A stretch of 64,000 nucleotides of DNA from contig JAGRPI010000023.1 of NCBI GenBank assembly GCA_019449635.1, forward strand, positions 1 through 64,000. Direction: 5' to 3'. Below, piece after piece: positions 198-52,675 of the stretch; position 1 is the stretch's first letter, and each line of letters opens with the position of its first letter. The position numbers and the translations under genes are program-made. The notes beneath the pieces are model-generated. The model did no database searches. It saw nothing but the letters and a program-made list of their open reading frames with translations, and was not told the DNA's origin. Source of the stretch: Candidatus Ferrigenium bremense. Lineage in GTDB: Bacteria > Pseudomonadota > Gammaproteobacteria > Burkholderiales > Gallionellaceae.

Positions 198-316
198 GCG
201 CCCCCTCTCCCCCAGCCCCTGATGGAACTACTAGCCATTCGACTAAGCCCGCAAGCGGGCAAGTCGCTGGTTATCTCCCGCTAGCGGGAGAGGGTGGCCG
301 ATAGGCCGGGAGAGGG
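198..316. repeat. CCCTCTCC palindrome interrupted by a TAGCC-hairpin element
   Basis: The outer repeat is of the CCCTCTCCC...GGGAGAGGG family. At 221-274 it is interrupted by a 54-base TAGCC-hairpin unit that starts GATGGAACTACTAGCCATTC and ends CAAGTCGCTGGTTAT, with a GCCCGCAAGCGGGC stem in the middle. The join is CCCCT|unit|CTCCC. An uninterrupted copy of the outer repeat is visible inside leuS at 42124-42162. Confidence 0.8.
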
Positions 317-317
317 T

Positions 318-2288
318 TCATCCTTTATGCAGCCTTTCCTCCGCCTGCTGCAACGCTTCAGGCAGCCCCAGCAGCACCAGTACATCGCCTGCCTGCAGCA
401 GCATTTCCTCGCTCGGTTGCGCGCCGCGCATGCCGCGGCGGCGCACTGCGTTCACTTGGATGTTCAGGGTATCCAGACCGACTTCGCGCAATTGTTTGCC
501 CGCTGCACTGGAGTCTTCCTTGAGCAGCACGCTCAGAAAGCGCTGCTGCAGACGGTCGGTTGCCTCGCCGACCTCATATTGGGCGGTGCGCAAATAGCCG
601 CTGAACACCGCATAGCGGCGTGCGCGGCTTTCCTGGACGCGGCGGATCACGCGGTTGAGCGGCACACCCGCCATCAGCAAGGCTTGCGAGGCGAGCATCA
701 CGCTGCCCTCCAGCACTTCGGCAACTACTTCCGCCGCACCGGCTTCCTTCAACACTTCCACGTTCGTATCGTCGTTGGTGCGCACCACCACCGGCAGATC
801 CGGGCGCAGTTCCTTGACATGGCGCAGGATCGCCAGCGCGGAATGCTTGTCCTTGTAGGAGACGACCAAGGCCTTGGCGCGCATCAATCCGGCGGCCATC
901 AATACTTCGCGTTTGGCGGCATCGCCATATACCACGCTCTTCCTGGCGGCAATGGCTTCGCGCACGCGGCGTGAATCGAGATCCAGCGCGATGAAACGCA
1001 GGTTCTCCTCTTCGAGGAAGCTTGCCAGCGTATGCCCGCTGCGCCCATAGCCGCAAATGATGATGTGCCCGCTGCTGCCCATGCTTTGAATGGCGATCTG
1101 GTGCATCTGCATGGCGCGGCTGGTCCATTCGGCGGCCGAGAAACGCCGCGCGATCGCTTCGCCGTGCTGGATCAGGAAGGGTGCCGCCAGCATGGAAAGC
1201 AGCATCGCCGCCAGCGTGATCTGCATGGTTGCAGCGTCGAGCAGATGCGCGCCATCCGCCAGCGTCAGCAGCACGAAGCCGAATTCGCCAGCCTGCGCCA
1301 AGCCGATCGCACTGCGCAACGCCACGCCCCAATCCCCCTCGAAAGCGCGCGCCAGCGATGCCACGATCAATGCCTTGAACAGGATCAGCGCCAGCAATGC
1401 CAGCAGCACCCAGCCGAGATCCGCCGCCACGCTGCCCAAGTCGAGCTTCATGCCGATGGTGACGAAGAACAGGCCAAGCAGCACATCGCGGAACGGCTTG
1501 ATGTCCTCCTCCACCTGATAGCGGTATTCGGTTTCGGAAATCAGCATGCCCGCGACAAACGCGCCCAACGCCAGCGACAAGCCCGCCAGCTCGGTGAAAT
1601 AAGCCAGCCCCAGCGTGATGAGCAGCACGTTGAGCATGAACAATTCCGAGGACTTCTGCTGTGCCACGACGTGAAACCATGGCCGCATGACGTGCTGCCC
1701 GAACACCAGCAGCACCAGCAACACCGCTATCGCCTTGAGTGTCGCATAAGCCAGCGTGATGGGAAGATCATGGGGACTCGAGGCCAGCGCGGGAATGATG
1801 ATCAGCAGCGGGACCACGGCAAGATCCTGAAACAGCAGCACGCCCATCATCTGCTGGCCGTAGGGCAGATTCAGCTCGGCGCGCTCGACCAGCATCTTGC
1901 TGACAATCGCGGTGGAAGACATCGCCAGCACGCCGCCCAAAGCCAGGCCGGCGCGCCAATCCAGCCCGAACACGGCAGCGGCCGCCATGACCAGCAGCAT
2001 GGTCGCAACCACCTGCACGCCGCCCAAACCGAACACCGTGCGTTTCATCGCGGTCAGGCGCGTCAGGCTGAATTCCAGGCCGATGCTGAACATCAGGAAC
2101 ACCACGCCGAACTCGGCCAGATGCCGTGTTCCCGCCGCATCGGGTATCCACGCGAGGGCATACGGGCCGATCAGGATGCCGACCGCCAGATAACCCAGCA
2201 TCACCGGCAAATGCAGGATGCGGCACAGCACCACCACTATCACGGCAGTGGCAAGCAGGATAAGGACCAGTGAGAGGATGCTTTCCAT
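318..2288 (-). CDS. CPA2-family monovalent cation:proton antiporter with TrkA domains (KefB/KefC/YbaL type)
   Basis: This is a 656-residue inner-membrane antiporter expected to exchange K+ (or Na+) for protons. The first ~385 residues hold about a dozen hydrophobic segments, including the family segment EFGVVFLMFSIGLEFSL and FTELAGLSLALGAFVAGML. A TrkA-N (RCK) Rossmann domain follows, with IIICGYGRSGHTLA as its nucleotide-binding glycine motif, then a TrkA-C-like domain at the C terminus ending near LHKG. The start at 2288 (MESILSL) was chosen because it opens directly into the first membrane helix and has GGAG about 12 bases upstream; a longer frame reaches 2378 but would add a non-hydrophobic leader read from repeat-rich DNA. 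KefB, KefC and YbaL cannot be separated from sequence alone. It stands alone, with a repeat composite upstream. Confidence 0.9.
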   Translation of the reverse strand: MESILSLVLILLATAVIVVVLCRILHLPVMLGYLAVGILIGPYALAWIPDAAGTRHLAEFGVVFLMFSIGLEFSLTRLTAMKRTVFGLGGVQVVATMLLVMAAAAVFGLDWRAGLALGGVLAMSSTAIVSKMLVERAELNLPYGQQMMGVLLFQDLAVVPLLIIIPALASSPHDLPITLAYATLKAIAVLLVLLVFGQHVMRPWFHVVAQQKSSELFMLNVLLITLGLAYFTELAGLSLALGAFVAGMLISETEYRYQVEEDIKPFRDVLLGLFFVTIGMKLDLGSVAADLGWVLLALLALILFKALIVASLARAFEGDWGVALRSAIGLAQAGEFGFVLLTLADGAHLLDAATMQITLAAMLLSMLAAPFLIQHGEAIARRFSAAEWTSRAMQMHQIAIQSMGSSGHIIICGYGRSGHTLASFLEEENLRFIALDLDSRRVREAIAARKSVVYGDAAKREVLMAAGLMRAKALVVSYKDKHSALAILRHVKELRPDLPVVVRTNDDTNVEVLKEAGAAEVVAEVLEGSVMLASQALLMAGVPLNRVIRRVQESRARRYAVFSGYLRTAQYEVGEATDRLQQRFLSVLLKEDSSAAGKQLREVGLDTLNIQVNAVRRRGMRGAQPSEEMLLQAGDVLVLLGLPEALQQAEERLHKG

Positions 2289-2349
2289 CGACGGCTTCAA
2301 ACTCCAAATGCGAAATGGGCAGCAGCACGCTGCAGCAACCCGGATTATC

Positions 2350-2482
2350 CATCTATTGATCCGGCACTGTTTATCCAAGAATCCGTTCGCATTGAGCTTG
2401 TCGAAATGTGAATGGATTCTTGTGCTTCGACAAGCTCAGCACGAACGGCAACCGATTTCAATTCGTGCCGGATCAATAGATG
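2350..2482. repeat. Nested palindrome: 18-bp perfect inverted repeat around a TTCGACAAGCTCAG repeat pair
   Basis: CATCTATTGATCCGGCAC at 2350-2367 is matched perfectly in inverse orientation at 2465-2482. Between these arms lies an inverted pair of the widespread CGTTCG...CTGAGCTTGTCGAA repeat (2383-2408 and 2424-2448). The 133-bp unit has the shape of a tiny element with terminal inverted repeats. It fills much of the gap between the antiporter gene and the cytochrome terminator; nothing else is seen in 2289-2656. Confidence 0.8.
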
Positions 2483-2656
2483 CGGGCCGATTTTCCATCT
2501 GGCCGGCAAGCCAATCTCAACAACGCGGCGCGTAACGACAGATTCATTCGCCCATTTTCGCGCGGATGAGTCCGCACCTGCGACCGACTGATTGCTTGGC
2601 ACTGCGCCGGCCAATAAACAATCCGGAATAGACCAAAGACTATCAGAATACGCAAC

Positions 2657-2684
2657 AAAAAAGCCGGCTCACGCCGACTTTTTT
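2657..2684 (-). terminator. Rho-independent terminator of the first cytochrome gene
   Basis: The stem GCCGGC/GCCGAC around TCAC is flanked by six A on one side and six T on the other, so it can work in both directions. It lies 33 bases past the stop of the cytochrome gene at 2717-3034. Confidence 0.8.
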
Positions 2685-2716
2685 AAAGGCTGCTCCCTTG
2701 CCAGTTCAGGGCAAGC

Positions 2717-3034
2717 TTACTTCGCCAGACCCAGAACGAAGTTCGCCAGCATGCCCGCATCTGCTTCACTTAGCTTAGGGTTACCCGGCATGGGCATGGC
2801 TCCCCATACGCCGCCCCCGCCCTTCATGATCTTGGTGGTCAGTTTGGCCTTTGCGGTGGCATCGCCCTTGTACTTTTTGGCAACGTCCATCCATGCAGGA
2901 CCCACCACTTTTTTGTCGATTGCATGACAGGCGTTACAGCTGTTTTTCTTGGCAATGTCAGGCATGTCGGCCGCCATCGCGCTGCCCCCGACCATCAGGC
3001 TTGCTGCGATCATGCTTATCACAATAGATTTCAT
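2717..3034 (-). CDS. Small periplasmic class I cytochrome c (c551/c552-like)
   Basis: The 105-residue product has a Sec signal peptide of about 21 residues (MKSIVISMIAASLMVGGSAMA). The mature domain has one haem-binding CNACH and, towards the C terminus, a methionine-rich MPMPGNP segment that should supply the axial Met ligand. It is expected to be a soluble periplasmic electron carrier. The start at 3034 is supported by GGGAG seven bases upstream; a longer frame to 3145 lacks a signal peptide. It is one of three adjacent paralogues. The next gene shares long near-identical DNA around VVGPAWMDV, which indicates tandem duplication. The redox partner cannot be read from sequence; an oxidase or an iron-oxidation chain is possible. 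Confidence 0.88.
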   Translation of the reverse strand: MKSIVISMIAASLMVGGSAMAADMPDIAKKNSCNACHAIDKKVVGPAWMDVAKKYKGDATAKAKLTTKIMKGGGGVWGAMPMPGNPKLSEADAGMLANFVLGLAK

Positions 3035-3303
3035 GCTTTTCTCCCTTGTGCAGTTGATGCATTCAAATAAAGCAGGACGCGCCCTACTCTCGCCACCGGA
3101 AACAGCATAAACAATCCCGCCGCCCCCGCATGACCGTCCGACCAAGCCGCTGGCCCATCTAATCTTCCAAACCGCAAAGCATGATTAACTCTATCCATGG
3201 CGTTGACGGTTCGCTTGCGCGATGATACTCCATCCGGAGTATTCGAATTCTGGGTCATTTTTTTTGCCCCATCACATGCCGTCAGCGATATTATCCGATA
3301 ATA
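3035..3303. other. Intergenic region between cytochrome genes
   Basis: This 269-base stretch holds the ribosome-binding site and presumably the promoter of the downstream (minus-strand) cytochrome gene. I see no convincing coding frame and no clear sigma-70 box, and none of the repeat families found elsewhere in the window. Confidence 0.5.
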
Positions 3304-3330
3304 AAAAAAGCCGGCGCAAGCCGGCTTTTT
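3304..3330 (-). terminator. Rho-independent terminator of the second cytochrome gene
   Basis: A perfect GCCGGC stem closed by a GCAA tetraloop has an A tract on one side and a T tract on the other. It sits 19 bases past the stop codon at 3349. The stem resembles the terminator of the neighbouring paralogue, so the duplication included the terminator. Confidence 0.88.
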
Positions 3331-3348
3331 CGTGAATCATTCCAGAAC

Positions 3349-3669
3349 TTATTTTGCCAGGCCCAGAATAAAGTCTATCAGCGCCTTCCGGTCTGCATCG
3401 CTAACCTTGGTCATGGCCGGCATCGGGCTCGAACCCCATACGCCCTTACCGCCCTTGGAGATCACGCCGTCCAGATGGGCGGCAGCACCTGCATCACCCT
3501 TGTACTTCTTGGAAACGTCCATCCATGCAGGACCCACCACTTTTTTGTCAATTGCGTGACAAGCTGTGCAAGTACCCTTTTTGGCAACGTCGGGCATATC
3601 GACCGCCATCGCGCTGCCTGCGACCATCAGACCTGCTGCTGCAACCATGCTTACAATAATAGATTTCAT
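3349..3669 (-). CDS. Small periplasmic class I cytochrome c, tandem paralogue
   Basis: This 106-residue protein has a signal peptide (MKSIIVSMVAAAGLMVAGSA, cleavage after AMA), one haem motif CTACH and a candidate axial Met in SSPMPAM. GGAG lies just upstream of the start. It resembles the neighbouring 105-residue cytochrome along its whole length; the block VVGPAWMDVSKKYKGDA is almost identical in protein and DNA. Each gene has its own terminator and Shine-Dalgarno site, so the paralogues are probably transcribed separately. It is expected to carry electrons in the periplasm; the partner is unknown. Confidence 0.88.
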   Translation of the reverse strand: MKSIIVSMVAAAGLMVAGSAMAVDMPDVAKKGTCTACHAIDKKVVGPAWMDVSKKYKGDAGAAAHLDGVISKGGKGVWGSSPMPAMTKVSDADRKALIDFILGLAK

Positions 3670-3816
3670 GTTCTCTCCGTTTCGTGATTAAAACACCCTG
3701 AGTAATGCGAAGGCCTCACCTTCGCAGCCGATTCTAAACAACTCCACCCGCTTTGCCAACCAAAACCCTTCAGGCGGCAAGGCATTAACGCAAACCAGCT
3801 TCGCGGCGTTGACAGC

Positions 3817-4383
3817 TTATTTCAAAGACAGCACAAATCTCGCCAGGGTCTTGCGATCCGCCTCGCTGACCTGCGGGCTGGGCGGCATTATCATGACACC
3901 CCACACGCCGCTGCCGCCCTTGGCGATCTTGTCCATTATCCTGGCTTCAGCCCCGGCGTCACCGCGATATTTGGCAGCCACATCCTTCCACGCCGGCCCG
4001 ACCACCTTCTTGTCGATTGCATGGCAGGCAAGGCAGTTGCTTTTCTTTGCCAATTGCAAAGCATCCGCTTCGGATACTGCCGGCTCGGCCTTTGTCTCCG
4101 GTTTGGCCACAACTGCTGCCGGTTCGGTTTTTGCAGGCGGTGCGGCAGCTGCTGGCGCTGGAGCTATCTGTGCCGGTTTTTCGGCAGTCACGTGCACTGC
4201 CTGTTGAACCGGGGCGGATGCAGCCGCTCCACTCGCGACGGGCTGGGCAGCCTGCCCTGGTAGAGCCTGCGTAACAGGCGGCTGCATGGCAGCGGGTGAG
4301 GCAGGCTGTTGCGCAGGTACTTCGGGCTGGCAGCCATACAATGCCGCCAACAATGATGCCAGCAAGATATTTCGTGTACTCAT
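3817..4383 (-). CDS. Membrane-anchored lipoprotein cytochrome c, third paralogue
   Basis: The 188-residue product begins with a lipoprotein signal peptide; the lipobox LYGC puts the lipidated Cys at position 18. A proline/alanine-rich linker of about 90 residues follows. The C-terminal ~80 residues repeat the cytochrome fold of the two neighbours: haem motif CLACH, then AIDKKVVGPAW and a Met-rich MIMPPSP segment. It is therefore a tethered version of the same carrier, able to swing on a flexible stalk. Outer or inner membrane placement cannot be decided from the lipobox; Gln follows the Cys, with no Asp retention signal at +2. Together the three genes suggest a short electron-transfer chain of soluble and tethered forms. 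Confidence 0.85.
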   Translation of the reverse strand: MSTRNILLASLLAALYGCQPEVPAQQPASPAAMQPPVTQALPGQAAQPVASGAAASAPVQQAVHVTAEKPAQIAPAPAAAAPPAKTEPAAVVAKPETKAEPAVSEADALQLAKKSNCLACHAIDKKVVGPAWKDVAAKYRGDAGAEARIMDKIAKGGSGVWGVMIMPPSPQVSEADRKTLARFVLSLK

Positions 4384-5628: not shown

Positions 5629-5682
5629 TTTTAATTCCAATATCAATCTATCCGATTTTGTCCGTGGCGCATAAAAACAATT

Positions 5683-5780
5683 TGTCCACGAAATACACGA
5701 AAGACACGAAGCTTATCCGGGCCATCGCTACTTTGACGGCATTTGCATTATTTTCGTGATTTTCGTGTATTTCGTGGACA
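5683..5780. repeat. Inverted repeat of the CCACGAAATACACGAAA family
   Basis: Arms TGTCCACGAAATACACGAAA (left, 5683-5710) and TTTCGTGTATTTCGTGGACA (right end of 5751-5780) are nearly perfect inverses around a 40-base loop. The element ends 13 bases before the ilvD stop codon, so it forms the 3' end of the ilvD transcript. Confidence 0.8.
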
Positions 5781-5792
5781 GTATTTCGAGGG

Positions 5793-7637: not shown

Positions 7638-7685
7638 AATGTCTCTCTTTGAAAGTTGAAGCGTGCAACACCCATAAAACAACCA

Positions 7686-7822
7686 TTAGCCACGGATAGA
7701 CACGGATTGCCACAGATAAAACCCTGTGTTGCCGGAAATCCGCCTTTCATCAGAAAGATGTACCGGATGAGAAAGGCAACTCATTGATAATCCGTGTACA
7801 TCCGTGTTAATCCGTGGCTGAA
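7686..7822. repeat. Inverted repeat of the CCACGGATNNACACGGAT family
   Basis: Left arm TTAGCCACGGATAGACACGG and right arm ending TCCGTGTTAATCCGTGGCTG flank about 70 bases. It sits between the divergent ilvD and lgt start codons, where their promoters must lie. Relatives occur at 21574-21767, 34988-35090, 45645-45783 and 59968-60055. Confidence 0.85.
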
Positions 7823-7869
7823 CTGCTTTTTATAGGATAATTGAGCAATTCATTTTACCCGATTCATCC

Positions 7870-11472: not shown

Positions 11473-12342
11473 ATGAGTTTTCTGGAAACCCTGCAAGCGG
11501 CTCCGTCCGCCTTCATCGGCGTGTGCCTGTTTCTCGGCCTGATGGTCGGTAGTTTTCTGAATGTGGTCATCCACCGCTTGCCGAAAATGCTGGAGCTGGG
11601 CTGGCAGCAACAATGCGCCGAACTGCGCGGCGAAGAACCGGTCGCCGCCCCCACCTACAATCTCATCACCCCGCGTTCCGCCTGTCCGCATTGCAATCAT
11701 GCCATCCGCGCATGGGAGAACATTCCTGTCGTCAGCTACCTGCTGTTGCGCGGCAAGTGCAAGGGTTGCGGTGCGGCCATCTCGCCGCGCTATCCGGTCA
11801 TTGAGGCGATCAGCGGCATATTGTGCGGATTTGCGGCCTGGCACTTCGGTTTCGGTTGGCCGGCAGCCGGCGCACTGCTGCTCATCTGGGCATTGCTGGC
11901 GCTGACGGCGATCGACTTCGACACTCAACTGTTGCCGGACGACATCACCCTGCCGCTGCTCTGGGCTGGCTTGCTGTTCAACCTGTCCGGCATCTTTACC
12001 GATTTGGCTAGCGCAGTGCTGGGCGCGGTATTCGGCTATCTCACGCTATGGTGCGTGTACTGGGCATTCAAGCTCGCCACCGGCAAGGAAGGCATGGGCT
12101 ACGGCGATTTCAAGCTACTCGCGGCACTGGGCGCCTGGCTAGGCTGGCAAATGCTGCCGCTCATTATTTTGTTATCCTCGCTGGTCGGTGCAGCGGTTGG
12201 CATCGTCCTGATGGTGGCGGCCAGGCATGGCCGCAACGTCCCCATTCCCTTCGGCCCGTATCTGGCGGGCGGCGGACTGATCGCCCTGTTCTGGGGGCAG
12301 ACTCTGACACAGAATTATCTGCAATTGCTCTCGGCTCCATGA
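11473..12342 (+). CDS. pilD: Prepilin leader peptidase / N-methyltransferase
   Basis: PilD cleaves the leader of type IV prepilins and pseudopilins and methylates the new N terminus. The 289-residue membrane protein has the N-terminal domain with paired zinc cysteines (CPHC and CKGC, about 24 residues apart). The two catalytic aspartates of the GxGD-type protease are in AIDFDTQLLPDD and GMGYGDFK. The start at 11473 (MSFLETL) matches the family; the longer frame upstream is repeat-derived. The stop overlaps the coaE start (ATGA), which fits the conserved pilC-pilD-coaE order. Confidence 0.96.
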   Translation: MSFLETLQAAPSAFIGVCLFLGLMVGSFLNVVIHRLPKMLELGWQQQCAELRGEEPVAAPTYNLITPRSACPHCNHAIRAWENIPVVSYLLLRGKCKGCGAAISPRYPVIEAISGILCGFAAWHFGFGWPAAGALLLIWALLALTAIDFDTQLLPDDITLPLLWAGLLFNLSGIFTDLASAVLGAVFGYLTLWCVYWAFKLATGKEGMGYGDFKLLAALGAWLGWQMLPLIILLSSLVGAAVGIVLMVAARHGRNVPIPFGPYLAGGGLIALFWGQTLTQNYLQLLSAP

Positions 12343-13118
12343 GCCCCTTCGATCCTTCGACCAAGCTCAGGACAGGCATGGCTGATGAAACAACTGGTGA
12401 AACAACTAGCCATCTGACTAACCCAGCAAAAGACGCTGGGCAAGTCATTGGTTATAGCCATTCGACTAGGCTGCCAAAAGACGACAGCCAAGTCGCTGGT
12501 TATCAGGACAGGCGGCTGACTATCGGACTCACGGGCGGGATCGGCAGCGGCAAAAGTACCGTTGCCGCGCTGTTTGCGGAACATGGCGCAGGCATCATCG
12601 ATACGGACGCCATCGCCCACAGCCTGACGCAAACCGGCGGCGCGGCCATTGCGGCGATCCGTGCCGCCTTCGGCAACGACTGCCTCACGGATGACGGCGC
12701 ACTGGATCGCGCAAAAATGCGCGGGCTGATTTTTTCGGATGCTGCCGCCAAGCAAAGGCTCGAGCTGATCCTGCACCCCATGATCTTCGAACAGGCCAAG
12801 GCGCAGCTGCGGCAATTACAGGCAAAACCCTACACCATCGTCGTCGTGCCGCTGCTGCCAGAAAGCCGTACCTTCCGGCAGCTGGTGCAGCGCGTGCTGG
12901 TGGTGGATTGCGATGAAAACACCCAGGTTGCGCGCGTCATCGGGCGCAGCCGCATGACGGAAGAAGAAGTACGCGTCATCATCTCCCGCCAATCCCCGCG
13001 CGCCGACCGGCTGCGTCTGGCCGACGACGTCATACGCAACGATGCCGGCCTGGACAGCCTGGCCGGGCAGGTCGCCGCTTTACATGAACGCTACTCTGAC
13101 GCGCAAAGCGGCGATTGA
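12339..13118 (+). CDS. coaE: Dephospho-CoA kinase with a repeat-encoded N-terminal extension
   Basis: CoaE phosphorylates dephospho-CoA in the last step of coenzyme A synthesis. The kinase core begins at about residue 60 (LTIGLTGGIGSGKST, the P-loop) and includes DTDAIAH and the late RQSPRADRLRLADDVI. The open frame gives 259 residues against about 205 in the family. The first ~58 residues are read from repeats: a CCTTCGACCAAGCTCAGGAC motif and then two TAGCC-hairpin units. The only in-frame ATGs before the core are at 12339 and 12378, so the extension is probably translated. TCAGGACAGGC flanks the inserted units as a direct repeat (12367-12377 and 12503-12513). Start overlaps pilD. Confidence 0.92.
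   Translation: MSPFDPSTKLRTGMADETTGETTSHLTNPAKDAGQVIGYSHSTRLPKDDSQVAGYQDRRLTIGLTGGIGSGKSTVAALFAEHGAGIIDTDAIAHSLTQTGGAAIAAIRAAFGNDCLTDDGALDRAKMRGLIFSDAAAKQRLELILHPMIFEQAKAQLRQLQAKPYTIVVVPLLPESRTFRQLVQRVLVVDCDENTQVARVIGRSRMTEEEVRVIISRQSPRADRLRLADDVIRNDAGLDSLAGQVAALHERYSDAQSGD
12384..12503. repeat. Tandem pair of TAGCC-hairpin units in the coaE 5' coding region
   Basis: Unit 1 (12384-12455) carries an ACCCAGC...GCTGGG stem; unit 2 (12456-12503) carries GGCTGCC...GACAGCC. Both end in TTGGTTAT or CTGGTTAT. Both are read in frame as the CoaE N terminus. Confidence 0.85.
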
Positions 13119-15307: not shown

Positions 15308-15540
15308 AGGCCGTTCGCCCTGAGGTGTCGAAGGGGGTAACGTGCGCTGGCTTAGTTAGGCCGTTCGTGGTGAGGTATCGAACCATGAATGGTAGCAATC
15401 AAAATCAAAATCAAAACTGCCGGGGGTAGCCCGGCGGTTTTGATTTGTTTTTGACGTTCATGCTTCGACAAGCTCAGCACGAACGGATTGATTAAGCTGG
15501 TACACACTACACCCTTCGATACCTCAGGGCGAACGGCTGA
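15308..15540. repeat. Cluster of CGTTCG...CTGAGGTATCGAA repeats around a terminator
   Basis: Copies lie at 15308-15334, 15360-15386, and as an inverted pair within 15459-15540. The terminator at 15410-15444 sits between them. The whole gap between argJ and the Nudix gene is made of these parts; no gene is seen. Confidence 0.8.
15410..15444 (-). terminator. Rho-independent terminator downstream of argJ
   Basis: ATCAAAACTGCCGGG pairs with CCCGGCGGTTTTGAT around a five-base loop. On the minus strand it is followed by a T-rich run (TTTTGATTTTGATT). Confidence 0.75.
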
Positions 15541-21523: not shown

Positions 21524-21573
21524 GGGTGCGCGTGCCCATCCAAAGCTTTTTATGTTGATTCTGGAAAACGCAA

Positions 21574-21767
21574 TTGAGCCACGGATGGACACGGATTGAC
21601 ACAGATGAACAGCGGGCCGCGACTACTGCACATTTAACTTTCCCCCATACCGTTTGGGTGAAATACCAAACCCTCACCTCAATCCCCTCTGCGGGAGAGG
21701 ATGCAACCATTCTTCCACTTCTGTGGGCTTCATCCGTGTTTATCCGTGTAAATCTGTGGCTAATTGA
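21574..21767. repeat. CCACGGAT inverted repeat enclosing a CCCTCACC/GCGGGAGAGG repeat
   Basis: Outer arms TTGAGCCACGGATGGACACG and the region TCCGTGTAAATCTGTGGCTA pair. In the loop at about 21670-21702 lies AACCCTCACCTCAATCCCCT followed by CTGCGGGAGAGG, a member of a different repeat family. This is another nested arrangement. It lies between the convergent ends of DUF721 and ubiC; no gene is present. Confidence 0.8.
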
Positions 21768-25039: not shown

Positions 25040-26872
<1,833 letters not shown>

Positions 26873-27663: not shown

Positions 27664-27800
27664 CTGTCCTTCCCCAAAGGGAAGGGACGCTTGCTTCCTC
27701 TCCCGCAAGCGGGAGATAACCAACGACTAGGCTGCCGTCTTTTGGCAGACTAGTCGGATGGCTGGTGGTTATATCAGGATTGGGGTGAGGGGTGGTGCCA
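27664..27800. repeat. CCTCTCCC palindrome interrupted by a TAGCC-hairpin element
   Basis: The outer repeat reads CCTCTCCCGCAAGCGGGAG, then the inserted unit at 27716-27775 (ATAACCAACGACTAGGCTGC ... GTTATATC), then AGGATTGGGGTGAGGGG. The join GGGAG|unit|AGG is the same internal position at which the copy at 221-274 interrupts its host repeat, in the same relative orientation. Confidence 0.82.
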
Positions 27801-34987: not shown

Positions 34988-35090
34988 TTTGGCCGCGGAT
35001 ATACACGGATAAGCACGGATAAACCTTACATCCGAAAAAGGCAGAATCAACCCATCCGTGTAAATCCGTGTTCATCCGTGGCTCAATCGC
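34988..35090. repeat. CCACGGAT-family inverted repeat
   Basis: Left arm TTGGCCGCGGATATACACGG and right arm CCGTGTTCATCCGTGGCTCA flank about 40 bases. It ends 13 bases before the glycosylase start codon. Confidence 0.83.
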
Positions 35091-35102
35091 GTTTCCCGGT
35101 TT

Positions 35103-37791: not shown

Positions 37792-40140
37792 CTACACCGC
37801 CGTCAGTTTCGCGTACTCCAGCGCCAGCCATTTGCTGCCCGCGTGCTTGAAGTTGACCTGCACGCGCGCATCCGCGCCGCTGTCCTCCACGCCGGTAATG
37901 GTTCCCTCGCCGAACTTCTGGTGGAACACGCGCTGGCCGATGCGCCATAACCCCTCCCGGCTTCCCCTTGTCAGGGGAGGAGGATTTGCTTCCCCCCTGA
38001 CAAGGGGGGATTGAGGGGGGTTGAGGGTTGGATAGTCAGCAGTAAACGACTTGCGTGCCGCGAACCTCGGCGTCAGCCAATGCACTAACCCCTCCGGCAA
38101 CTCGCGCAGGAAACACGACGCCATGCCGTAATTCACCTGCCCGTGCAGCATGCGGCTCTGCGCGAAGCTCAGGTACAGCCTGCGCCGTGCGCGGGTGATC
38201 GCCACGTACATCAGGCGGCGTTCCTCATCCAGACCGCCGTCCACGTTCTGGCTGTTCTGGTGCGGGAACAAACCCTCCTCCAGCCCGGTGATGAACACGG
38301 TGTGGAACTCCAGCCCCTTCGCCGCATGTACCGTCATCAGGTGCAGCGCATCGTCCTGGTCGCCCGCCTGATGCTCACCCGCCTCCAGTGAGGCGTGTGT
38401 GAGGAAGGAGGTCAGGCTGTCGTCCTCGTTCTCGTGCACGAACAGCGTCGCGGCGTTGACCAGTTCGTTGAGGTTCTCCAGGCGTTCCTCGGCCTCGCGC
38501 CTCTTCGCGGCGGAAGCCTTCTCGCTTTCATAATGCGCGACCAGGCCGCTGTGCTCCAGCACATGGTCGATGATCTCGGGGAGCGGGAGGGTGGAGCCGG
38601 AGGCTCCGGGCACACCCCGGCCTGCCCCTTGCGGGTGGAGCGGCAGTTCGCGCGTCGCGCTGCGCAGCGATTCAATTAGCGCGACGAATGCGGAAACCTT
38701 GCCGCCCGCGCGCGCCGCCGCATCCCACAGCGTCGTCGAATTCATCTTCGCCGCCTCCTGCAACTGCTCGATGCTGCGCGCGCCGATGCCGCGCGTCGGG
38801 AAATTGATGATGCGCAACAGCGCGTTGTCGTCGTCGGTGTTTTCCATCAGGCGCAGGTAGGCCAGCGCGTGCTTGACCTCCTGCCGCTCGAAGAAGCGCA
38901 GCCCGCCGTATACGCGATAAGATAATCCGGCTGAGACCAGCGCATGTTCCAGCACCCGCGACTGCGCGTTGGAGCGGTACAGCAGCGCGATCTCCTTGAG
39001 ATTGATCCCCTCGGATTTCAACTGCCGGATCTCGTCAATGATAAACCCAGCCTCGTCCACATCCGTCGCCGCCTCGTACACGCGCAGTTGCTCCCCGCCG
39101 TTCTCTGCCGTCCACAGGTTCTTGCCGAGGCGGCTGCGGTTATGCTGGATCAGCGCGTTGGCCGCGTCGAGGATGTTGGCGTGCGAACGGTAGTTCTGTT
39201 CCAGCTTGATGACATTCCCGATGTGGAAGTCGCGCAGCAGCTCCTGCATGTTGCCGACGTTCGCGCCGCGGAACGCATAAATCGACTGGTCGTCGTCCCC
39301 TACGGCAAAGAGCGCCGCAGGCGCGATATCATCGCGCAGCGATGCGTTCGCGCCCTCTCCCCCAGCCTCTCCCCCGCGAAGGGGGGAGGGGTGCAGTGGG
39401 AGAGGGTTGGGGAGAGGGCGTTTTTCGCCAACCCCCGCCAGCAGTTTCAGCCAGCGGTATTGCAGCGGGTTGGTATCCTGGAACTCGTCCACCAGGATGT
39501 GTTTGAAGCGCTCCTGGTAATGCTCGCGCAGTTGCGCATTGCGCGACAGCAGCTCGTAGCAGCGCAGCAGCAGCTCGGAAAAATCCACCACGCCCTCGCG
39601 CTGGCATTGCGCATCGTACTCGGCGAAGATCTCCACCTTGCGCCGCGCGTATGGATCGTAGGCCTCGACCTCGTGCGCGCGCAGCCCCTGCTCCTTGCTG
39701 GAGCTGATGAAATTCTGCACCTCGCGCGGCGGATATTTTTCGTCGTCGACATTCATCGTCTTCATCAGCCGCTTGATCGCCGACAACTGGTCGCCTGAGT
39801 CGAGGATCTGGAAGGTCTGCGGCAGGTTCGCCTCGCGGTGATGCGCGCGCAACATGCGGTTGCACAGCCCGTGGAACGTGCCGATCCACATGCCGCGCGT
39901 ATTGATGGGGAGCATCGCGGACAGGCGCGTCACCATCTCCTTCGCCGCCTTGTTGGTGAACGTCACCGCGAGAATGCCGTGCGGGCTGGCCGCCCCCGTG
40001 CTGATGAGATACGCGATGCGCGTGGTCAGCACGCGCGTCTTGCCGCTGCCCGCCCCGGCGAGGATCAGCGCGGACTGGTGCGGCAGGGTGACGGCTAGTC
40101 GTTGTTCGGGATTGAGGCCGGAAAGCAGTGAGGAATTCAT
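37792..40140 (-). CDS. uvrD: DNA helicase II (UvrD) with three in-frame repeat insertions
   Basis: UvrD is the SF1 helicase of nucleotide-excision and mismatch repair. Motifs: AGAGSGKT (29-36), FTNKAAKEM, DEFQDTN (218-224), VGDDDQSIYAFRG (280-292), LEQNYRS, TVHAAKGLEF and VAITRARRRL. The open frame has 782 residues against about 720 in relatives. Extra segments: ~240-272 (PLPNPLPLHPSPLRGGEAGG..., 39330-39426), ~497-519 (38580-38650) and ~706-729 (LNPPQSPLVRGEANPPPLTR, 37954-38025). All fall between motifs or in the C-terminal tail before the Tudor-like end. The start at 40140 (MNSSLLSGLNPEQ) matches the family. Confidence 0.96.
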   Translation of the reverse strand: MNSSLLSGLNPEQRLAVTLPHQSALILAGAGSGKTRVLTTRIAYLISTGAASPHGILAVTFTNKAAKEMVTRLSAMLPINTRGMWIGTFHGLCNRMLRAHHREANLPQTFQILDSGDQLSAIKRLMKTMNVDDEKYPPREVQNFISSSKEQGLRAHEVEAYDPYARRKVEIFAEYDAQCQREGVVDFSELLLRCYELLSRNAQLREHYQERFKHILVDEFQDTNPLQYRWLKLLAGVGEKRPLPNPLPLHPSPLRGGEAGGEGANASLRDDIAPAALFAVGDDDQSIYAFRGANVGNMQELLRDFHIGNVIKLEQNYRSHANILDAANALIQHNRSRLGKNLWTAENGGEQLRVYEAATDVDEAGFIIDEIRQLKSEGINLKEIALLYRSNAQSRVLEHALVSAGLSYRVYGGLRFFERQEVKHALAYLRLMENTDDDNALLRIINFPTRGIGARSIEQLQEAAKMNSTTLWDAAARAGGKVSAFVALIESLRSATRELPLHPQGAGRGVPGASGSTLPLPEIIDHVLEHSGLVAHYESEKASAAKRREAEERLENLNELVNAATLFVHENEDDSLTSFLTHASLEAGEHQAGDQDDALHLMTVHAAKGLEFHTVFITGLEEGLFPHQNSQNVDGGLDEERRLMYVAITRARRRLYLSFAQSRMLHGQVNYGMASCFLRELPEGLVHWLTPRFAARKSFTADYPTLNPPQSPLVRGEANPPPLTRGSREGLWRIGQRVFHQKFGEGTITGVEDSGADARVQVNFKHAGSKWLALEYAKLTAV
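37954..38025. repeat. In-frame repeat 3 in uvrD (C-terminal tail)
   Basis: Facing copies CCCCTTGTCAGGGGAGGA and CCCCCTGACAAGGGGGGA form a strong palindrome read as LNPPQSPLVRGEANPPPLTR. Confidence 0.82.
38580..38650. repeat. In-frame repeat 2 in uvrD
   Basis: GGAGCCGGAGGCTCC forms a hairpin, followed by a CCCCTTGCGGGTGGAG stretch. About 22 residues appear between SLRSATREL and PEIIDHVL, where relatives have few. Confidence 0.65.
39330..39426. repeat. In-frame repeat 1 in uvrD (between motifs II and III)
   Basis: CCCTCTCCCCCAGCCTCTCC, CCGCGAAGGGGGGAGGGG and GGGAGAGGGTTGGGGAGAGG make a double palindrome. It lies between DEFQDTN and VGDDDQ, so the two conserved motifs are pushed about 33 residues apart. 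Confidence 0.82.
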
Positions 40141-44627: not shown

Positions 44628-44632
44628 TCCCC

Positions 44633-45634
44633 ATGCCGATCACCAGCGAAGAACTGCCGCGCCACCTCGCCTCCGGCCTCAAGCCGCTGTATGTGGTGTA
44701 CGGCGACGCGCTGCTGCTGGCGGTCGAGGCGGCGGACAGCATCCGCGCGGCGGCGCGCGCGGCCGGCTACAGCGAGCGCGAGACCTTTGTCGCCGAACAG
44801 CATTTCAAATGGGGCGAGCTGCGCAACAGCGCGCAAAGCCTGTCGCTGTTCGCCGAGCGCAAGATCATCGACCTGCGCATCCCGTCCGGCAAGCCCGGCA
44901 CGGAAGGCGGGCAGGCATTACAGGACTATGTCGCCAACCTGAGCCCGGACATCCTGACGCTGATCTCCCTGCCCAAGATGGACTGGACCGCGCAGAAGAG
45001 CCAGTGGTTCGGCGCGCTGGAACGGCACGGCGTGATGGTTTCCGCCGACGATATCCCGCGCAACGCGCTGCCGCGCTGGATCACCGCCCGCCTGAAGCGG
45101 CAGGAGCAGAGCGCCGACGAGGCCACGCTGGAATTCCTCGCCGACCGTTGCGAAGGCAACCTGCTCGCGGCGTTTCAGGAGATCCAGAAGCTCGCGCTGC
45201 TGTTCCCCGCCGGGCAACTGTCCTTCGAACAGGTCAAGGATGCGGTGATGGACGTGGCACGCTACGACATCTTCAAGCTCTCCGAAGCCATGCTGAGCGG
45301 CGACACGGCACGTTTTGCGCGCATCCTCGACGGCCTGCGTGCCGAAGGGACCGCCACCGTGCTGGTACTGTGGGCGGTCAGCGAAGATATCCGCACGCTG
45401 GGCAAGGTGCTGCAAGTGGCACAACGCGGCGGCAACCTCGGTACCGCCCTGCGCGACCTGCGGGTGCGCAAAGACCGACAGGGATTGATCGAGCATGCGG
45501 CGCGCCGGCTGAAGTTCCCGCATATCGAACGCGCCCTGCTTCAGGCCGCGCGGCTGGACAAGACCATCAAGGGCCTGCGCCAGGGCGATGTTTGGGATGA
45601 ATTGCTGCAACTGGGATTGCGCTTCGCGAAATAA
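44633..45634 (+). CDS. holA: DNA polymerase III delta subunit
   Basis: HolA opens the beta clamp within the clamp loader. The 333-residue product shows the AAA+-like N domain (LYVVYGDALLLAVEAADSIR), the YDIFKLSEAMLSGD segment and the C-terminal collar helices. It follows lptE by five bases and ends the operon before a repeat. Confidence 0.95.
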   Translation: MPITSEELPRHLASGLKPLYVVYGDALLLAVEAADSIRAAARAAGYSERETFVAEQHFKWGELRNSAQSLSLFAERKIIDLRIPSGKPGTEGGQALQDYVANLSPDILTLISLPKMDWTAQKSQWFGALERHGVMVSADDIPRNALPRWITARLKRQEQSADEATLEFLADRCEGNLLAAFQEIQKLALLFPAGQLSFEQVKDAVMDVARYDIFKLSEAMLSGDTARFARILDGLRAEGTATVLVLWAVSEDIRTLGKVLQVAQRGGNLGTALRDLRVRKDRQGLIEHAARRLKFPHIERALLQAARLDKTIKGLRQGDVWDELLQLGLRFAK

Positions 45635-45644
45635 ACATGCAATT

Positions 45645-45783
45645 TAGCCACGGATTTACACGGATGAACACGGATTATCAATGGACCGATTCGTTATCTA
45701 CCCTTGCATCCGGGCGAATGGCGGATTCTTCCACAATATTTTGTTTTATCGGTGGCAATCCGTGTATATCCGTGGCTAATCGC
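45645..45783. repeat. CCACGGAT-family inverted repeat
   Basis: Arms TTAGCCACGGATTTACACGG (left) and CCGTGTATATCCGTGGCTAA (right) pair around about 90 bases. It ends 14 bases before the cutA ATG, where no Shine-Dalgarno site is visible. Confidence 0.85.
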
Positions 45784-45796
45784 CGCTTTTAATATT

Positions 45797-46126: not shown

Positions 46127-46129
46127 CCC

Positions 46130-48103: not shown

Positions 48104-48167
48104 GGTTTTTTACCTATCTTCGTCAAAATACTAGACAACTAGCCCCAATTTACGGCAAACTGCGCAC

Positions 48168-48638
48168 ATGAAAACCAGCACTGCCAACAAGGCGAACTGC
48201 GCCAAAAACATCTTGGTGCTGCACGGACCCAACCTGAACCTGCTCGGCAGCCGCGAGCCGGACGTGTATGGATGCGTCACGTTAGACGAAATTAATGCAC
48301 GTTTAATGACATTAGCCGGCAAGAATGGCGCAAACCTGTTTTGCTTCCAGAGCAACTCGGAAACCGCGCTGGTTGAACGGGTGCAGCAGGCGCGCAGCGA
48401 CGGCACGGACTTCATCGTCATCAATCCGGCGGCATTCACCCATACCAGCGTGGCCCTGCGTGACGCGCTGGCGGCAGTGGGCATCCCGTTCATCGAGGTA
48501 CATCTTTCCAACGTGTTCGCGCGTGAAGCATTCCGCAAGGAATCGTTCTTCTCCGACCTCGCCATTGGAGTAATCAGCGGCCTGGGCGCGGCGGGTTATG
48601 AACTTGCAGTGCAATATGCGCTGAAACATAAAAACTAG
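48168..48638 (+). CDS. aroQ: Type II 3-dehydroquinate dehydratase
   Basis: AroQ dehydrates 3-dehydroquinate in the shikimate pathway. The 156-residue product has [19 protein letters not shown] (active-site Tyr in the lid), [23 protein letters not shown] and the [15 protein letters not shown] segment with catalytic His. It sits between dsbD and accB, the usual betaproteobacterial order. Confidence 0.96.
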
Positions 48639-48655
48639 AACTCAAGGAGGGCATC

Positions 48656-49102
48656 ATGGATTTACGCAAGCTCAAGACACTGATCGAGCTGGTGGAAGGC
48701 TCCGGCATTGCCGAACTGGAAATCAGCGAAGGCGAAGAACGCGTACGCATCACGCGCACCGTGACCGCCGCGCCGCAACCAGTCTATGCGCCGGCCCCGC
48801 AGCCCGTAGCTGCCGCACAGCAACCCGCCGCTGCTGCAGCGGAACCCGCCAAACCCGCCGCACCCGAAGGCCATGTGGTGAAATCGCCGATGGTCGGCAC
48901 CTTCTACCGCTCCGCCTCGCCGGGTTCCAAGCCCTTCGCGGATGTCGGCCAAAGCGTGAACAGCGGCGATACCCTGTGCATCATCGAGGCGATGAAGCTG
49001 CTGAACGAGATCGACGCCGACCAGACCGGGGTCATCAAGGCTATCCTCGTAGAGAATGGGCAGCCGGTCGAGTTCGGGCAGCCGTTATTTGTCATTGGCT
49101 AA
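48656..49102 (+). CDS. accB: Biotin carboxyl carrier protein of acetyl-CoA carboxylase
   Basis: AccB carries biotin for acetyl-CoA carboxylase, the first step of fatty-acid synthesis. The 148-residue product has the N-terminal [20 protein letters not shown] segment, an Ala/Pro-rich swinging linker and the biotin-lysine motif [16 protein letters not shown] precedes the ATG. accC follows after a repeat. Confidence 0.97.
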
Positions 49103-49105
49103 GAC

Positions 49106-49240
49106 GTGAAAAGTGAAACGTGAAAAGTGAAACGTGAAAAGTGAAACGTGAAAAGTGAAACGTAACCCTCCCGGCAGGGAGGGTCGCGCCAGAGGCGCGG
49201 GGTGGGCATCACCTTTCACGTTTCACCTTTCACGCATAAG
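49106..49240. repeat. Tandem GTGAAAAGTGAAAC array with inverted right arm
   Basis: The 14-base unit GTGAAAAGTGAAAC is repeated about four times, then a CCCTCCCGGCAGGGAGGG hairpin follows, then CACCTTTCACGTTTCACC on the right. The whole can fold into one long hairpin between accB and accC and ends nine bases before the accC ATG. Units are contiguous, so it is not a CRISPR. Confidence 0.82.
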
Positions 49241-49248
49241 GTGAAACA

Positions 49249-50601
49249 ATGTTCGAGAAAATCCTGATTGCCAATCGTGGGGAGATCGCTCTCCGCATCC
49301 AGCGCGCCTGCCGCGAACTGGGCATTAAAACCGTCGTGGTGCATTCCGAAGCGGACGCCGAGGCCAAGTATGTGAGGCTGGCCGATGAATCGGTGTGCAT
49401 CGGCCCCGCGCCGTCCAATCTGAGCTACCTGAACATCCCCGCCATCATCAGTGCGGCGGAAGTCACCGATGCGCAGGCCATCCATCCCGGCTATGGCTTC
49501 CTGTCGGAAAATGCCGATTTTTCCGAACGCGTCGAAAAATGCGGCTTCGTGTTCATCGGGCCGCGCGCCGAAACCATCCGCCTGATGGGTGACAAGGTTT
49601 CCGCCAAGGCGGCGATGAAGAAGGCCGGCGTACCCTGCGTGCCGGGCGTGGACGGCGCATTGCCGGACAATCCCGCCGAGATCATCAAGATAGCGCGCAG
49701 CATCGGCTACCCGGTCATCATCAAGGCATCCGGCGGCGGCGGCGGGCGCGGGATGCGCGTCGTGCATACCGAGGCGGCGCTGCTGAATGCGGTGACCATG
49801 ACCAAGACCGAGGCGCAGGCCGCCTTCAACAACCCCATGGTGTACATGGAGAAATTCCTGGAGAACCCGCGCCATATCGAATTCCAGATACTGGCCGACC
49901 AGCACGGCAACGCGGTTTACCTGGGCGAGCGCGACTGTTCGATGCAGCGCCGCCACCAGAAGATCATCGAGGAGGCGCCTGCCCCGTCGCTCAACCTGCG
50001 CCTGCGCAACAAGATCGGCGAACGCTGCGCCGAGGCGTGCCGCAAGATCGGCTACCGCGGCGCGGGAACGTTCGAGTTCCTGTACGAGAACGGCGAATTC
50101 TTCTTCATCGAAATGAACACCCGCGTGCAGGTGGAGCATCCCGTCACCGAGATGATCACCGGCATCGATATCGTGCAGCAGCAGATCCGCATCGCCGCAG
50201 GGGAAAAGCTGCCGTTCAAGCAGCGCGATATCGAATTCAGGGGGCATGCCATCGAATGCCGGATCAACGCCGAGCACCCCTACAAATTCACCCCTTCGCC
50301 CGGACGCATCACCTCGTATCATGCCCCGGGCGGCCCCGGCATCCGCGTGGATTCGCATGTCTACAACAACTACTTCGTGCCCCCGCACTATGATTCGATG
50401 ATCGGCAAGATCATTGCCTACGGCGACACACGCGAACAGGCCATGGCAAGGATGCGCACCGCATTGTCCGAAATGTGGGTGGAAGGCATCGACACCAATC
50501 TCGCGCTGCATCGCGAACTGCTGCAGGACGCCGCCTTCATGCGCGGCGCCACCAGCATTCATTACCTGGAAGAGCGCCTCGCCGAACGCACCAAGGGTTA
50601 G
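49249..50601 (+). CDS. accC: Biotin carboxylase subunit of acetyl-CoA carboxylase
   Basis: AccC carboxylates the biotin on AccB with ATP and bicarbonate. The 450-residue length is normal. Visible are [16 protein letters not shown], the ATP-grasp loop [12 protein letters not shown] and the catalytic [17 protein letters not shown]. Unlike several neighbours it carries no repeat insertion. Confidence 0.98.
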
Positions 50602-50603
50602 AA

Positions 50604-51524
50604 ATGCCGTGGCTGACCCTCACCGTTGACACCGATGCGCAACACGCCGAAGCCCTGAGCGAAGCGCTGCTGGAGCTCGGCGCGCTGTCGGTCGACCTGC
50701 TGGACGCCGATGCCGGCACGCCGGACGAGCAGGCGATCTTCGGCGAGCCCGGCGAAGCGCCGCCCGGCGTGTGGCAGCACAACCGCGTCAGCGCCTTGTT
50801 CGACGCCGACCGCGATGTGCCGGCAATCCTGCGCAAAGCCGCCGGCAGCATCGGCCTCGAACAACTCCCCGAACACCGCATCGAAACGCTGGCCGACAAC
50901 GACTGGGTGCGCCTCACCCAAGCGCAGTTCGAGCCGATCCGCATCTCTGCGCGGCTGTGGATTGTGCCGACCTGGCATGTTCCCAGCGACCCGGAAGCCG
51001 TCAACATCGTGCTCGACCCCGGCCTCGCGTTCGGCACCGGCAGCCACCCCACCACGCGGCTGTGCCTGCGCTGGCTGGACGACCACCTCAGGAGCGGCGA
51101 GTCGGTGCTGGACTACGGCTGCGGCTCCGGCATCCTCGCCATCGCCGCGCTCAAGCTGGGGGCTGCACGCGCCGTCGGCGTTGATGTAGACTCGCAGGCA
51201 GTGACCGCCAGCCGCGACAATGCCATTGCGAACCAGGTCGGCAACGTGCAGTTCTGCCAGCCAGACAATGCGCCGCAGGACAGTTCCGAAAAACTTTTGG
51301 CCGGGCACCCGTATGATCTGGTGGTGGCAAACATTTTGACCAACCCGTTGCGCATGCTCGCCCCGTTGCTGGCGAATGCGACACGGCAAGGCGGACAGAT
51401 CGTGCTGTCCGGCATCCTCGAAGAACAGGCGCAAGACGTGATGGATATCTACCGGCAATGGTTCGACCTGAACGCCCCGATTTTCGAGGATGGCTGGGCA
51501 TGCCTGTCGGGACGGAAGCGTTGA
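50604..51524 (+). CDS. prmA: Ribosomal protein L11 methyltransferase
   Basis: PrmA trimethylates ribosomal protein L11. The 306-residue product has an N-terminal substrate-binding domain, the LDPGLAFGTGSHPTTRLCL motif and the SAM-binding LDYGCGSGILAIAALKLGA. The start at 50604 is two bases after the accC stop. Confidence 0.95.
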   Translation: MPWLTLTVDTDAQHAEALSEALLELGALSVDLLDADAGTPDEQAIFGEPGEAPPGVWQHNRVSALFDADRDVPAILRKAAGSIGLEQLPEHRIETLADNDWVRLTQAQFEPIRISARLWIVPTWHVPSDPEAVNIVLDPGLAFGTGSHPTTRLCLRWLDDHLRSGESVLDYGCGSGILAIAALKLGAARAVGVDVDSQAVTASRDNAIANQVGNVQFCQPDNAPQDSSEKLLAGHPYDLVVANILTNPLRMLAPLLANATRQGGQIVLSGILEEQAQDVMDIYRQWFDLNAPIFEDGWACLSGRKR

Positions 51525-51525
51525 C

Positions 51526-52464
51526 ATGAGCGGAACGACCCTCTGCCCGCACTGCAATACACGCTTCAAAATTGATGCTGAGCAATTGGAGGCACATCAC
51601 GGCATGGTGCGCTGCGGGCATTGCCTGCAAGCCTTCGACGCTCGTCCAGGCTATATCCCCGACCAGCCAAACCCGCAGCTTGAATTACTGATACTGAATG
51701 AGCCGGCCGAAGCCGCTGCAGAAGCCGCGGCCGCCGAGGAAACCACCTCTGCTGAAGGAACCGGGTTGGGAGAAGCGATCCCGCCCGCGGACGAGGCAGC
51801 CGCGCAAGCCGGGCTGCCGGAAACACCGCGCAACGACCTGCCGGATTTCGACCAGCCTGCCGCCGTTGAACCGGAGAATGAGGCCCCACAGGCCGCCGGA
51901 ACTGTTGCGAAACCCCTGACGCTGGCCGAGCAAGTCGCCATCGTGCAGGACGAGGATGAAGGCATCCCTCCCTCCGCACCCGCCTACCGCCGGTGGCCCT
52001 GGGCGGTCGCCGCGTTCCTGTTGCTGCTGGTGCTGCTCGCGCAGGCTGCCTATTTCTTCCGCGTCGACCTCGCCGCGCGCCTGCCCGGCCTGAAGCCCGC
52101 CTTGACCGGTTACTGCAAGCTGCTGGGATGCAGCGTGCCACTGCCGCAAAGAACCGACCTGATGAGCATCGAATCCTCCGACCTCGAAGCCGACCCAGCG
52201 CACGAAAACCAGATCAACCTGAACGCCCTGCTGCGCAACCGCGCGTCATACCCGCAGGCCTTCCCCAATCTGGAACTCACGCTCAACGATACCCAGGACA
52301 AACCGCTGGCGCGCCGTATCTTCAAACCGAAAGATTACTTGCCGCCGCACGAAAACGAACCAACCGGCCTGCTGCCCAATCACGAACTCGTCGTCAAGCT
52401 GCACCTCAACACCAACGACCTCAGGCCGACCGGTTATCGCCTGGTACTGTTTTATCAGCAGTAA
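51526..52464 (+). CDS. DUF3426 zinc-ribbon membrane protein
   Basis: The 312-residue protein begins with a zinc ribbon (CPHC...CGHC, MJ0042 type), then an acidic Ala/Glu/Pro-rich stretch (~60-155), one transmembrane helix (WAVAAFLLLLVLLAQAAYFF) and a DUF3426 domain (~190-310). Function is unknown. It overlaps or abuts prmA, as in many betaproteobacteria. Confidence 0.88.
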   Translation: MSGTTLCPHCNTRFKIDAEQLEAHHGMVRCGHCLQAFDARPGYIPDQPNPQLELLILNEPAEAAAEAAAAEETTSAEGTGLGEAIPPADEAAAQAGLPETPRNDLPDFDQPAAVEPENEAPQAAGTVAKPLTLAEQVAIVQDEDEGIPPSAPAYRRWPWAVAAFLLLLVLLAQAAYFFRVDLAARLPGLKPALTGYCKLLGCSVPLPQRTDLMSIESSDLEADPAHENQINLNALLRNRASYPQAFPNLELTLNDTQDKPLARRIFKPKDYLPPHENEPTGLLPNHELVVKLHLNTNDLRPTGYRLVLFYQQ

Positions 52465-52466
52465 CT

Positions 52467-52675
52467 CAGAAGCTGCCTTGAAAATTCGCGAGGAGGGATG
52501 GATGCAAGGCGCACGGAGCGCAGCAACCGGAATGTACACACAAGTACATGAGGATTGCGAGTACCGCGCAACGCCGCATAACCAGCCACTTGGCTGCTAT
52601 ATTTTGGCAGCCTAGTGGAATGGCTAGTAGTTCCATCAGACGCCCTCCGCAGCAATTTTTAAGGCAGCTTCTCAG
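52467..52675. repeat. AGAAGCTGCC inverted repeat interrupted by a TAGCC-hairpin element
   Basis: Outer arms AGAAGCTGCCTTGAAAATT (left) and AATTTTTAAGGCAGCTTCT (right) are inverses. Inside lies the TAGCC-hairpin unit at 52578-52637 (ATAACCAGCCACTTGGCTGC ... TAGTAGTTCCATC). The flanks ...ACGCCGC and AGACGCCC suggest an original ACGCCGCATCAGACG site. A short open frame here is an artefact. Confidence 0.82.

Follow-up and report, generated by a model that had tools for sequence, protein, structure and literature searches.

Rickettsia, a reduced intracellular parasite, offers the best-known case of selfish palindromes in protein genes. Two reports describe the Rickettsia palindromic elements (RPEs) as short palindromic insertions that keep the frame of the conserved genes they occupy open through the element (PMC10969869, PMC2229807). 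Likewise, repetitive extragenic palindromes (REPs) have been described within genes of several species (PMC3733652), insertion sequences (ISs) are reported to use REPs as landing sites (PMC1525189), and TnpA_REP enzymes cut at CT in S. maltophilia and at CT and CA in Marinomonas (PMC8266576). Here, we analyse a hairpin unit of 54–60 bp from Candidatus Ferrigenium bremense (Gallionellaceae), six copies of which lie in a 64,000-nucleotide stretch of its genome (assembly GCA_019449635.1, contig JAGRPI010000023.1, positions 1 to 64,000, hereafter the window). The unit is probably a tiny non-autonomous mobile element whose moving form is a DNA hairpin, carried by an enzyme that we infer to be of the Y1/HUH type. 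No description of it was found in the open-access literature on Gallionella and palindromic repeats, subscription papers lying mostly outside this search.

Direct reading of the window confirmed the six units, with the coordinates and shared ends given in the original prediction (Table 1). On one strand, the unit starts with a leader G[A/G]TGRAAC.AC, followed by a hairpin TAGCCATTCGACTA-stem-AAGTCGCTGGTTAT in which a G.T pair is conserved and the bulge is uneven; this leader of 11–12 nt on the 5′ side of the hairpin was not part of the earlier description. Among 314 parsed copies (135 of the 144 located matches in the own genome and 179 from other loci), the 282 with a parsed start measured 60 bp in 221 cases, 54 bp in 34 and another length in 27, the length parser demanding YT before the leader. 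Rfam returned a tRNA as its sole match in the window and no family for the unit. The two units at 12384–12503, which lie in frame in a dephospho-CoA kinase (coaE) open reading frame (ORF) immediately ahead of the P-loop, had been taken for a tandem pair; they are instead nested, an inner 60-mer being inserted in an outer 60-mer, and the same arrangement was found elsewhere in the own genome. In addition, nine more own sites fall in another unit by the rule of our script; insertion of unit into unit explains the pair in the window.

All six window units fold better than their dinucleotide shuffles (z from −2.9 to −5.6), with 2, 0, 0, 0, 0 and 0 of the 200 shuffles per unit folding as well. Over 112 distinct sequences, 96.2% of the stem cells are paired and 11 of 18 pairs have changed on both sides, a result matched by 0 of 500 shuffles on any of five measures, slid controls being far lower, which supports the hairpin with a co-varying stem described from the six units. 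The changed cells of the stem alignment, which are not independent events, number 154 on both sides versus 5 on one side, with 76 unpaired. While the covariation is real, the selection on the folded form claimed with it is only one way to read it. Indeed, the few one-side (G-U) states would be unlike the usual outcome of slow RNA coevolution, and the both-side excess also fits a process in which, in single-stranded DNA, one arm of the hairpin serves to correct the other, since both-side changes far exceed one-side changes.

The own genome (2.4 Mb) gave 142 covariance-model matches at E<=0.001 and 147 at E<=1, a count that is possibly a lower bound since 150 of 452 candidates were scored, and in which fragments, copies of a 48-bp sister form and the near-identical ends of contigs C9, C11 and C29 are included. 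There are 35 exact copies of the 15-mer core; allowing as many as 3 mismatches gave 168 hits versus 183 for the reversed control, and therefore only near-exact core matches count. An exact 23-base pattern, which does not include the CT that precedes the unit (the covariance model R1 does), matched at least 116 stretches in one-per-species genomes; the matches listed come mostly from metagenome-assembled genomes titled Gallionella, Sideroxydans, Gallionellaceae, Gallionellales or Nitrosomonadales, and some are titled Sulfuricella, Thiobacillus, Sideroxyarcus, Ferrigenium or only Proteobacteria. The model matched in 34 of 36 same-genus relatives and, at E<=1e-6, in 103 of 120 Gallionellaceae genomes representing 14 of 15 genera (per-genome counts in this survey are lower bounds above ~45); the 24 genomes taken from the order's remaining families gave no match. 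Between relatives, the copy number ranges from none to dozens. Such a model search had been proposed at the outset, and the further copies expected in the genome and its relatives are indeed present.

Insertions are exact (60 bp, sometimes 54) and lie directly 3′ of CT. The dinucleotide before the 11-nt leader was CT in 228 of 246 copies, TT in 12 and another one in 6, CT not being required in this count; within the window, CT precedes five of the six units, and the phosphoglucomutase (PGM) unit follows CC, though its orthologue in genome G083 follows CT. No target duplication was seen at the PGM and coaE sites, where empty orthologues were read. These retain the dinucleotide (CACGTTACT/GG in the PGM of G073 and G079, AGGCT/CAG in the coaE of G083, the slash marking the junction), and CT is therefore part of the target. 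When the flanks of the 93 own sites that lie outside other copies of the unit were joined and searched in 457 kb of the 2.41-Mb own genome, 68 matched an unfilled stretch elsewhere, versus 38 of 600 random control CT sites. Recurring hosts include CCCTCTCCCCAACCCTCT/CCCGCAAGCGGG, TTCGACAGGCT/CAGGGCGAACGG, TTCGCCCTGAGCCT/GTCGAAGGGC, CTCCCCT/GACAAGGGGAG and CACGTTACT/GGCG. These matches, together with the in-frame copies described below, bear out the nesting in other repeats and within genes.

Orthologous loci display a stepwise series, from the empty gene to a host repeat, a unit in the host repeat and finally a unit in a unit. Among 30 PGM loci, 26 are empty, two have the host repeat without the unit (G073 and G079, the G079 copy containing a run of N) and two have both (G000 and G083); the host repeat measures 102 bp, by protein length, and the filled form is 20 codons longer than the host repeat alone. 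For exonuclease III, 26 of 30 loci were readable: 21 are empty, two have one host repeat (33 codons), one has two host repeats, G079 has the host repeat plus a unit (20 codons), and the own gene has a second unit inside the first (+20). Likewise, among 30 TsaD loci, 24 are empty, three have only the CCCTCTCCCC-type host repeat and three have a unit inside that repeat. The coaE site is empty in G083, and in-frame units stand ahead of the P-loop in the own genome and at loci L231, L233 and L234. Of the five sites in the window, three (PGM, 27716 and 52578) are empty in the syntenic part of G073, with both flanks aligned; near coaE, a unit is present with flanks that differ from those of the window, and at site 221 the left side could not be aligned. 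At about the place matching 39353–39391, a G073 repeat of the type that stands unfilled in the window carries a unit (L341:14174-14230). The copies thus move, since presence and absence differ at orthologous sites between the window and G073, as the original prediction had anticipated. Note that the host repeat of ~99–102 bp, seen in L202 (PGM) and L441/L442 (exonuclease III), forms a second repeat family with in-frame gene insertions of its own and an apparent short duplication of flanking codons.

Nearly half of the located copies (69 of 144) fall within an ORF that is 120 codons or longer and continues for 30 or more codons to either side of the unit. Forty of these ORFs, picked by length, were compared with Pfam: the unit lies inside or between domains or stretches of one protein in 22 (for two-stretch domains, ‘between’ is deduced from the better-scoring stretch only) and outside the domain in six, the match breaks off at the unit in three (ApbE, an NTP transferase and a CptA-like match near the cut-off), and nine are without a Pfam match. 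The 22 ORFs, named by us from domain content where the name goes beyond the Pfam label, are ValS, SucA, KdsB, AroA-Cmk, Mfd, TilS, LpxK, Def, MgtC/DUF4010, an RluA-type synthase, a metallophosphatase, GlnD, an HD/GAF protein, MurD, CobB/CbiA, TsaD, exonuclease III, an APH-type kinase, an AcrB-type protein, RecJ, LysA and an AMP-binding enzyme, and the carrier proteins presumably still work. Two forward frames and one reverse frame of the unit are mostly stop-free: among 255 copies of 54 or 60 bp, forward frame 0 is open in 225, forward frame 1 in 212 and reverse frame 0 in 181. The 29 copies found in these 22 ORFs, the three with a match that breaks off and PGM (22 of 60 bp, 4 of 54 bp and 3 unparsed) mainly use the first forward (20) and the first reverse (6) frame.

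In the mechanism that we propose, one strand comprising the leader and the hairpin would be cut out and joined 3′ of CT, sometimes TT, and this joining would leave an exact insertion of 60 or 54 bp without target duplication. The usual targets are other palindromic repeats of the same genomes, plus the unit's own kind at the CT at the hairpin foot. Copies would then persist in conserved genes as about 20 extra codons, because the host repeats are already in genes, both lengths (54 and 60) are divisible by three and the frames are poor in stops. The moving form would be single-stranded DNA, and a Y1/HUH endonuclease (of IS200/IS605 or RAYT type, the latter being REP-associated tyrosine transposases) would act in trans, as suggested by the TnpA_REP enzymes of other bacteria, which cut at CT. 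A bolder and more tentative version, which is possible but less likely than not, would define a class of hyperparasitic hairpins: 60-bp single-stranded DNA elements landing in repeats and in themselves, with lengths and frames kept such that genes become a safe harbour, an unrecognised enzyme, and core enzymes turned into stacks of in-frame insertions.

Several observations weigh against the movement of a DNA hairpin by a Y1-type enzyme. Insertion at hairpin tips is weakly indicated: folding energy is lower (p 0.003), and pairs spanning the junction are no commoner than in controls (54/93 vs 813/1500, p 0.52), so the idea of tip targeting was not retained. Lagging-strand insertion would predict a strand bias, and the replication-strand counts are 18:4 in G064 (a single contig of 2.57 Mb, with full-length units), 19:13 in G027 and 27:24 in G007, together 64:41 (p 0.03; 105 of 112 matches assignable); the own genome gave 43:40 (83 of 102 junctions assignable), a mixed outcome in which the bias, striking in G064, was not repeated. 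Moreover, the unit ends in TTAT at its 3′ side, not in CT, and its leader foot (.AC) differs from the GTAG guide described for RAYTs. No Y1 gene is flanked by the unit as its own REP in 54 partly overlapping Y1 loci, which are part of the Y1 loci of the genus. Finally, no recurring neighbour gene family resembling a transposase was found among the 25 largest clusters, the large ones being joined through repeat-encoded peptides and housekeeping genes.

The first alternative, which we regard as unlikely, is that the unit is an ordinary REP moved by a resident RAYT that works on a degenerate, untagged REP. The unit is REP-like in being small, bulged and present in high copy, RAYTs are common in the genus (a Y1 match in 35 of 41 genomes; the own genome has five Y1 genes), and CT is the cut site of known RAYTs (PMC8266576). 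Yet each of the seven RAYT loci whose repeats were checked has flanking GTAG-hairpin REPs of its own, different from the unit, and six of the seven long Y1 genes (about 245 aa) have other inverted ends, which resemble the GGGGWSAS ends reported for Y1 genes flanked by terminal inverted repeats (PMC3733652). Nor are units enriched near Y1 genes: they occur at 2 of 34 loci, no more than chance, and the 54 loci (214,878 bases) hold five full-type matches. The full-type units near RAYTs in L078 and L081 were rejected as partners, since each of these RAYTs comes with inverted GTAGGGTGGATAAGCG REPs of its own and chance would account for this number of units. In addition, G022 (83% complete) has 87 unit matches without any Y1 match, and the IS200-like Y1 loci L055–L066 contain no unit, so no full-length tnpA relative with the same ends lies there. 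For the loci checked, a RAYT as cognate partner is thus rejected, and the shared REP-type Y1 gene of the original prediction found no support, because of these private REPs, chance-level proximity and G022. Conversely, the unit feeds on REPs, since it lies inside the REP of a RAYT in L330, and a sister form does likewise in L328. This sister form of the hairpin, GCATGGCC..GGTCAACG, is 48 bp long, differs from the unit in its ends and occurs in several genomes.

That the unit itself is immobile, and is copied along by recombination between host repeats that spread as composites, seems improbable to us. Recurrent repeats do hold most units (the 68 of 93 sites above), and the inner stem of the 54-bp type, CCCGCAAGCGGG, is identical to the hairpin of one common host repeat. 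However, the identical host insertion occurs with and without the unit in three genes, several unrelated host repeats and the unit itself carry units at CT, and 25 of the 93 sites have no repeat match. Slightly less probable still, lastly, is that these repeats are kept for a function in RNA or DNA, as terminators, mRNA stabilisers or nucleoid sites, rather than being parasites, for although the stem covaries and part of the copies are intergenic, the 69 of 144 copies in ORFs open on both sides, the positions that vary between relatives and the near lack of one-side intermediates (5 vs 154 cells, not independent events) speak against it.

Table 1. Positions of the units, their surroundings and the sister form (window coordinates unless a contig or locus is named)
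Feature	Position	Strand	Remarks
Unit 1, 54-bp type, inner stem CCGCAAGCGG	221..274	+	intergenic; CT before (219-220); adjoins repeat CTCCCGCTAGCGGGAG
Dephospho-CoA kinase ORF (domain, residues 158-335)	12048..13118	+	start codon uncertain
Outer unit of nested pair, 5′ part, 12 nt	12384..12395	+	CT before, 12382-12383
Inner unit, 60 bp, subfamily CATCTGACT..AGTCATTGG	12396..12455	+	3′ of outer unit's CT, 12394-12395
Outer unit of nested pair, 3′ part, 48 nt	12456..12503	+	
Phosphoglucomutase gene	25040..26839	-	in-frame interruption between Pfam domain III and C-terminal domain
Phosphoglucomutase gene insert, in frame, 162 bp	25478..25639	-	102-bp host repeat with 60-bp unit (34 + 20 codons)
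Unit 3, 60 bp	25505..25564	+	antisense to gene; 20 codons of phosphoglucomutase ORF
Unit 4, 60 bp	27716..27775	-	intergenic, within CCTCTCCCGCAAGCGGGAG repeat; orthologous G073 place without repeat or unit
Unfilled host repeat, CCCTCTCCCC..CCCGC type	39353..39391	+	
Unit 5, 60 bp	52578..52637	-	in larger palindromic insert, arms 52454-52497 and 52643-52686
Sister form, own genome	C30:4099, C37:166386, C23:20454-20560, C42:137883, C19:4627-4782		
Sister form, other locus	L328:8072, 8373		inside REPs of a RAYT

The larger palindromic insert around unit 5 is missing at the orthologous G073 place, and the coding of the ORF that runs through it is doubtful since this ORF has no Pfam match. The window also contains several copies of a palindromic repeat family CCGTTCGYSSTGAGGTATCGAA (15310–15537, 53353–53442 and 54855–54932) and ATCCGTGT..ATCCGTGGCT repeats (7676–7831, 21563–21763, 34989–35097, 45634–45789 and 60019–60049), often paired face to face about 100–160 bp apart. 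In addition, a tandem array of a 14-bp unit ACGTGAAAAGTGAA occupies 49104–49173, and two direct copies of 248 nt, 75% identical, lie at 2760–3007 and 3392–3639.

These observations place the phenomenon of palindromes in protein genes in a free-living and environmentally important group, the iron oxidisers of fresh water, with a readable order of events, and provide a natural series for how working enzymes tolerate inserts of 20, 40 or 50 residues. The target rule (3′ of CT, in repeats) helps in the hunt for the enzyme, and annotators should note that repeats of about 20 residues in Gallionellaceae proteins can be mobile DNA.

Compared with known systems, the unit was originally described as REP/MITE-like (MITEs being miniature inverted-repeat transposable elements), and a small, imperfect hairpin in many copies fits that description, while a GTAG/CGTC tag, a cognate RAYT at the loci checked and a target duplication at the sites read were not found. 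With the GTAG/CGTC REPs (REPtrons), it shares a short bulged hairpin, a high copy number and the CT, which is the cut site of the TnpA_REP enzymes studied. In contrast to them, it lacks a GTAG or CGTC tag immediately before the palindrome on the 5′ side: its leader ends in.AC (CTAC, CAAC and others), and where GTAG occurs, in some copies, it is on the opposite strand and 3′ of the hairpin. Unlike REPtrons, moreover, no RAYT is flanked by the unit, which instead lies inside RAYT REPs (L330; the variant in L328). As with MITEs, it is small, non-autonomous, present in many copies and capable of in-frame fusion, but it differs from them in having no target duplication (PGM, coaE) and no terminal inverted repeats separate from the single hairpin. 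With IS200/IS605-type (Y1) derivatives, the unit shares its landing directly 3′ of a fixed short motif and the lack of a duplication. Where ISs target REPs, the incomer is an IS, whereas here it is a 60-bp non-coding hairpin. With the RPEs, the unit has in common several copies, an open frame through the element, in-frame positions in conserved protein genes and empty orthologues; RPEs, however, measure about 105–150 bp compared with 54–60 bp, and the unit differs by its free-living Gallionellaceae host, its nesting in repeats and in itself, and its defined CT target. In its workings, the unit thus combines traits of a REP with those of a Rickettsia palindromic element.

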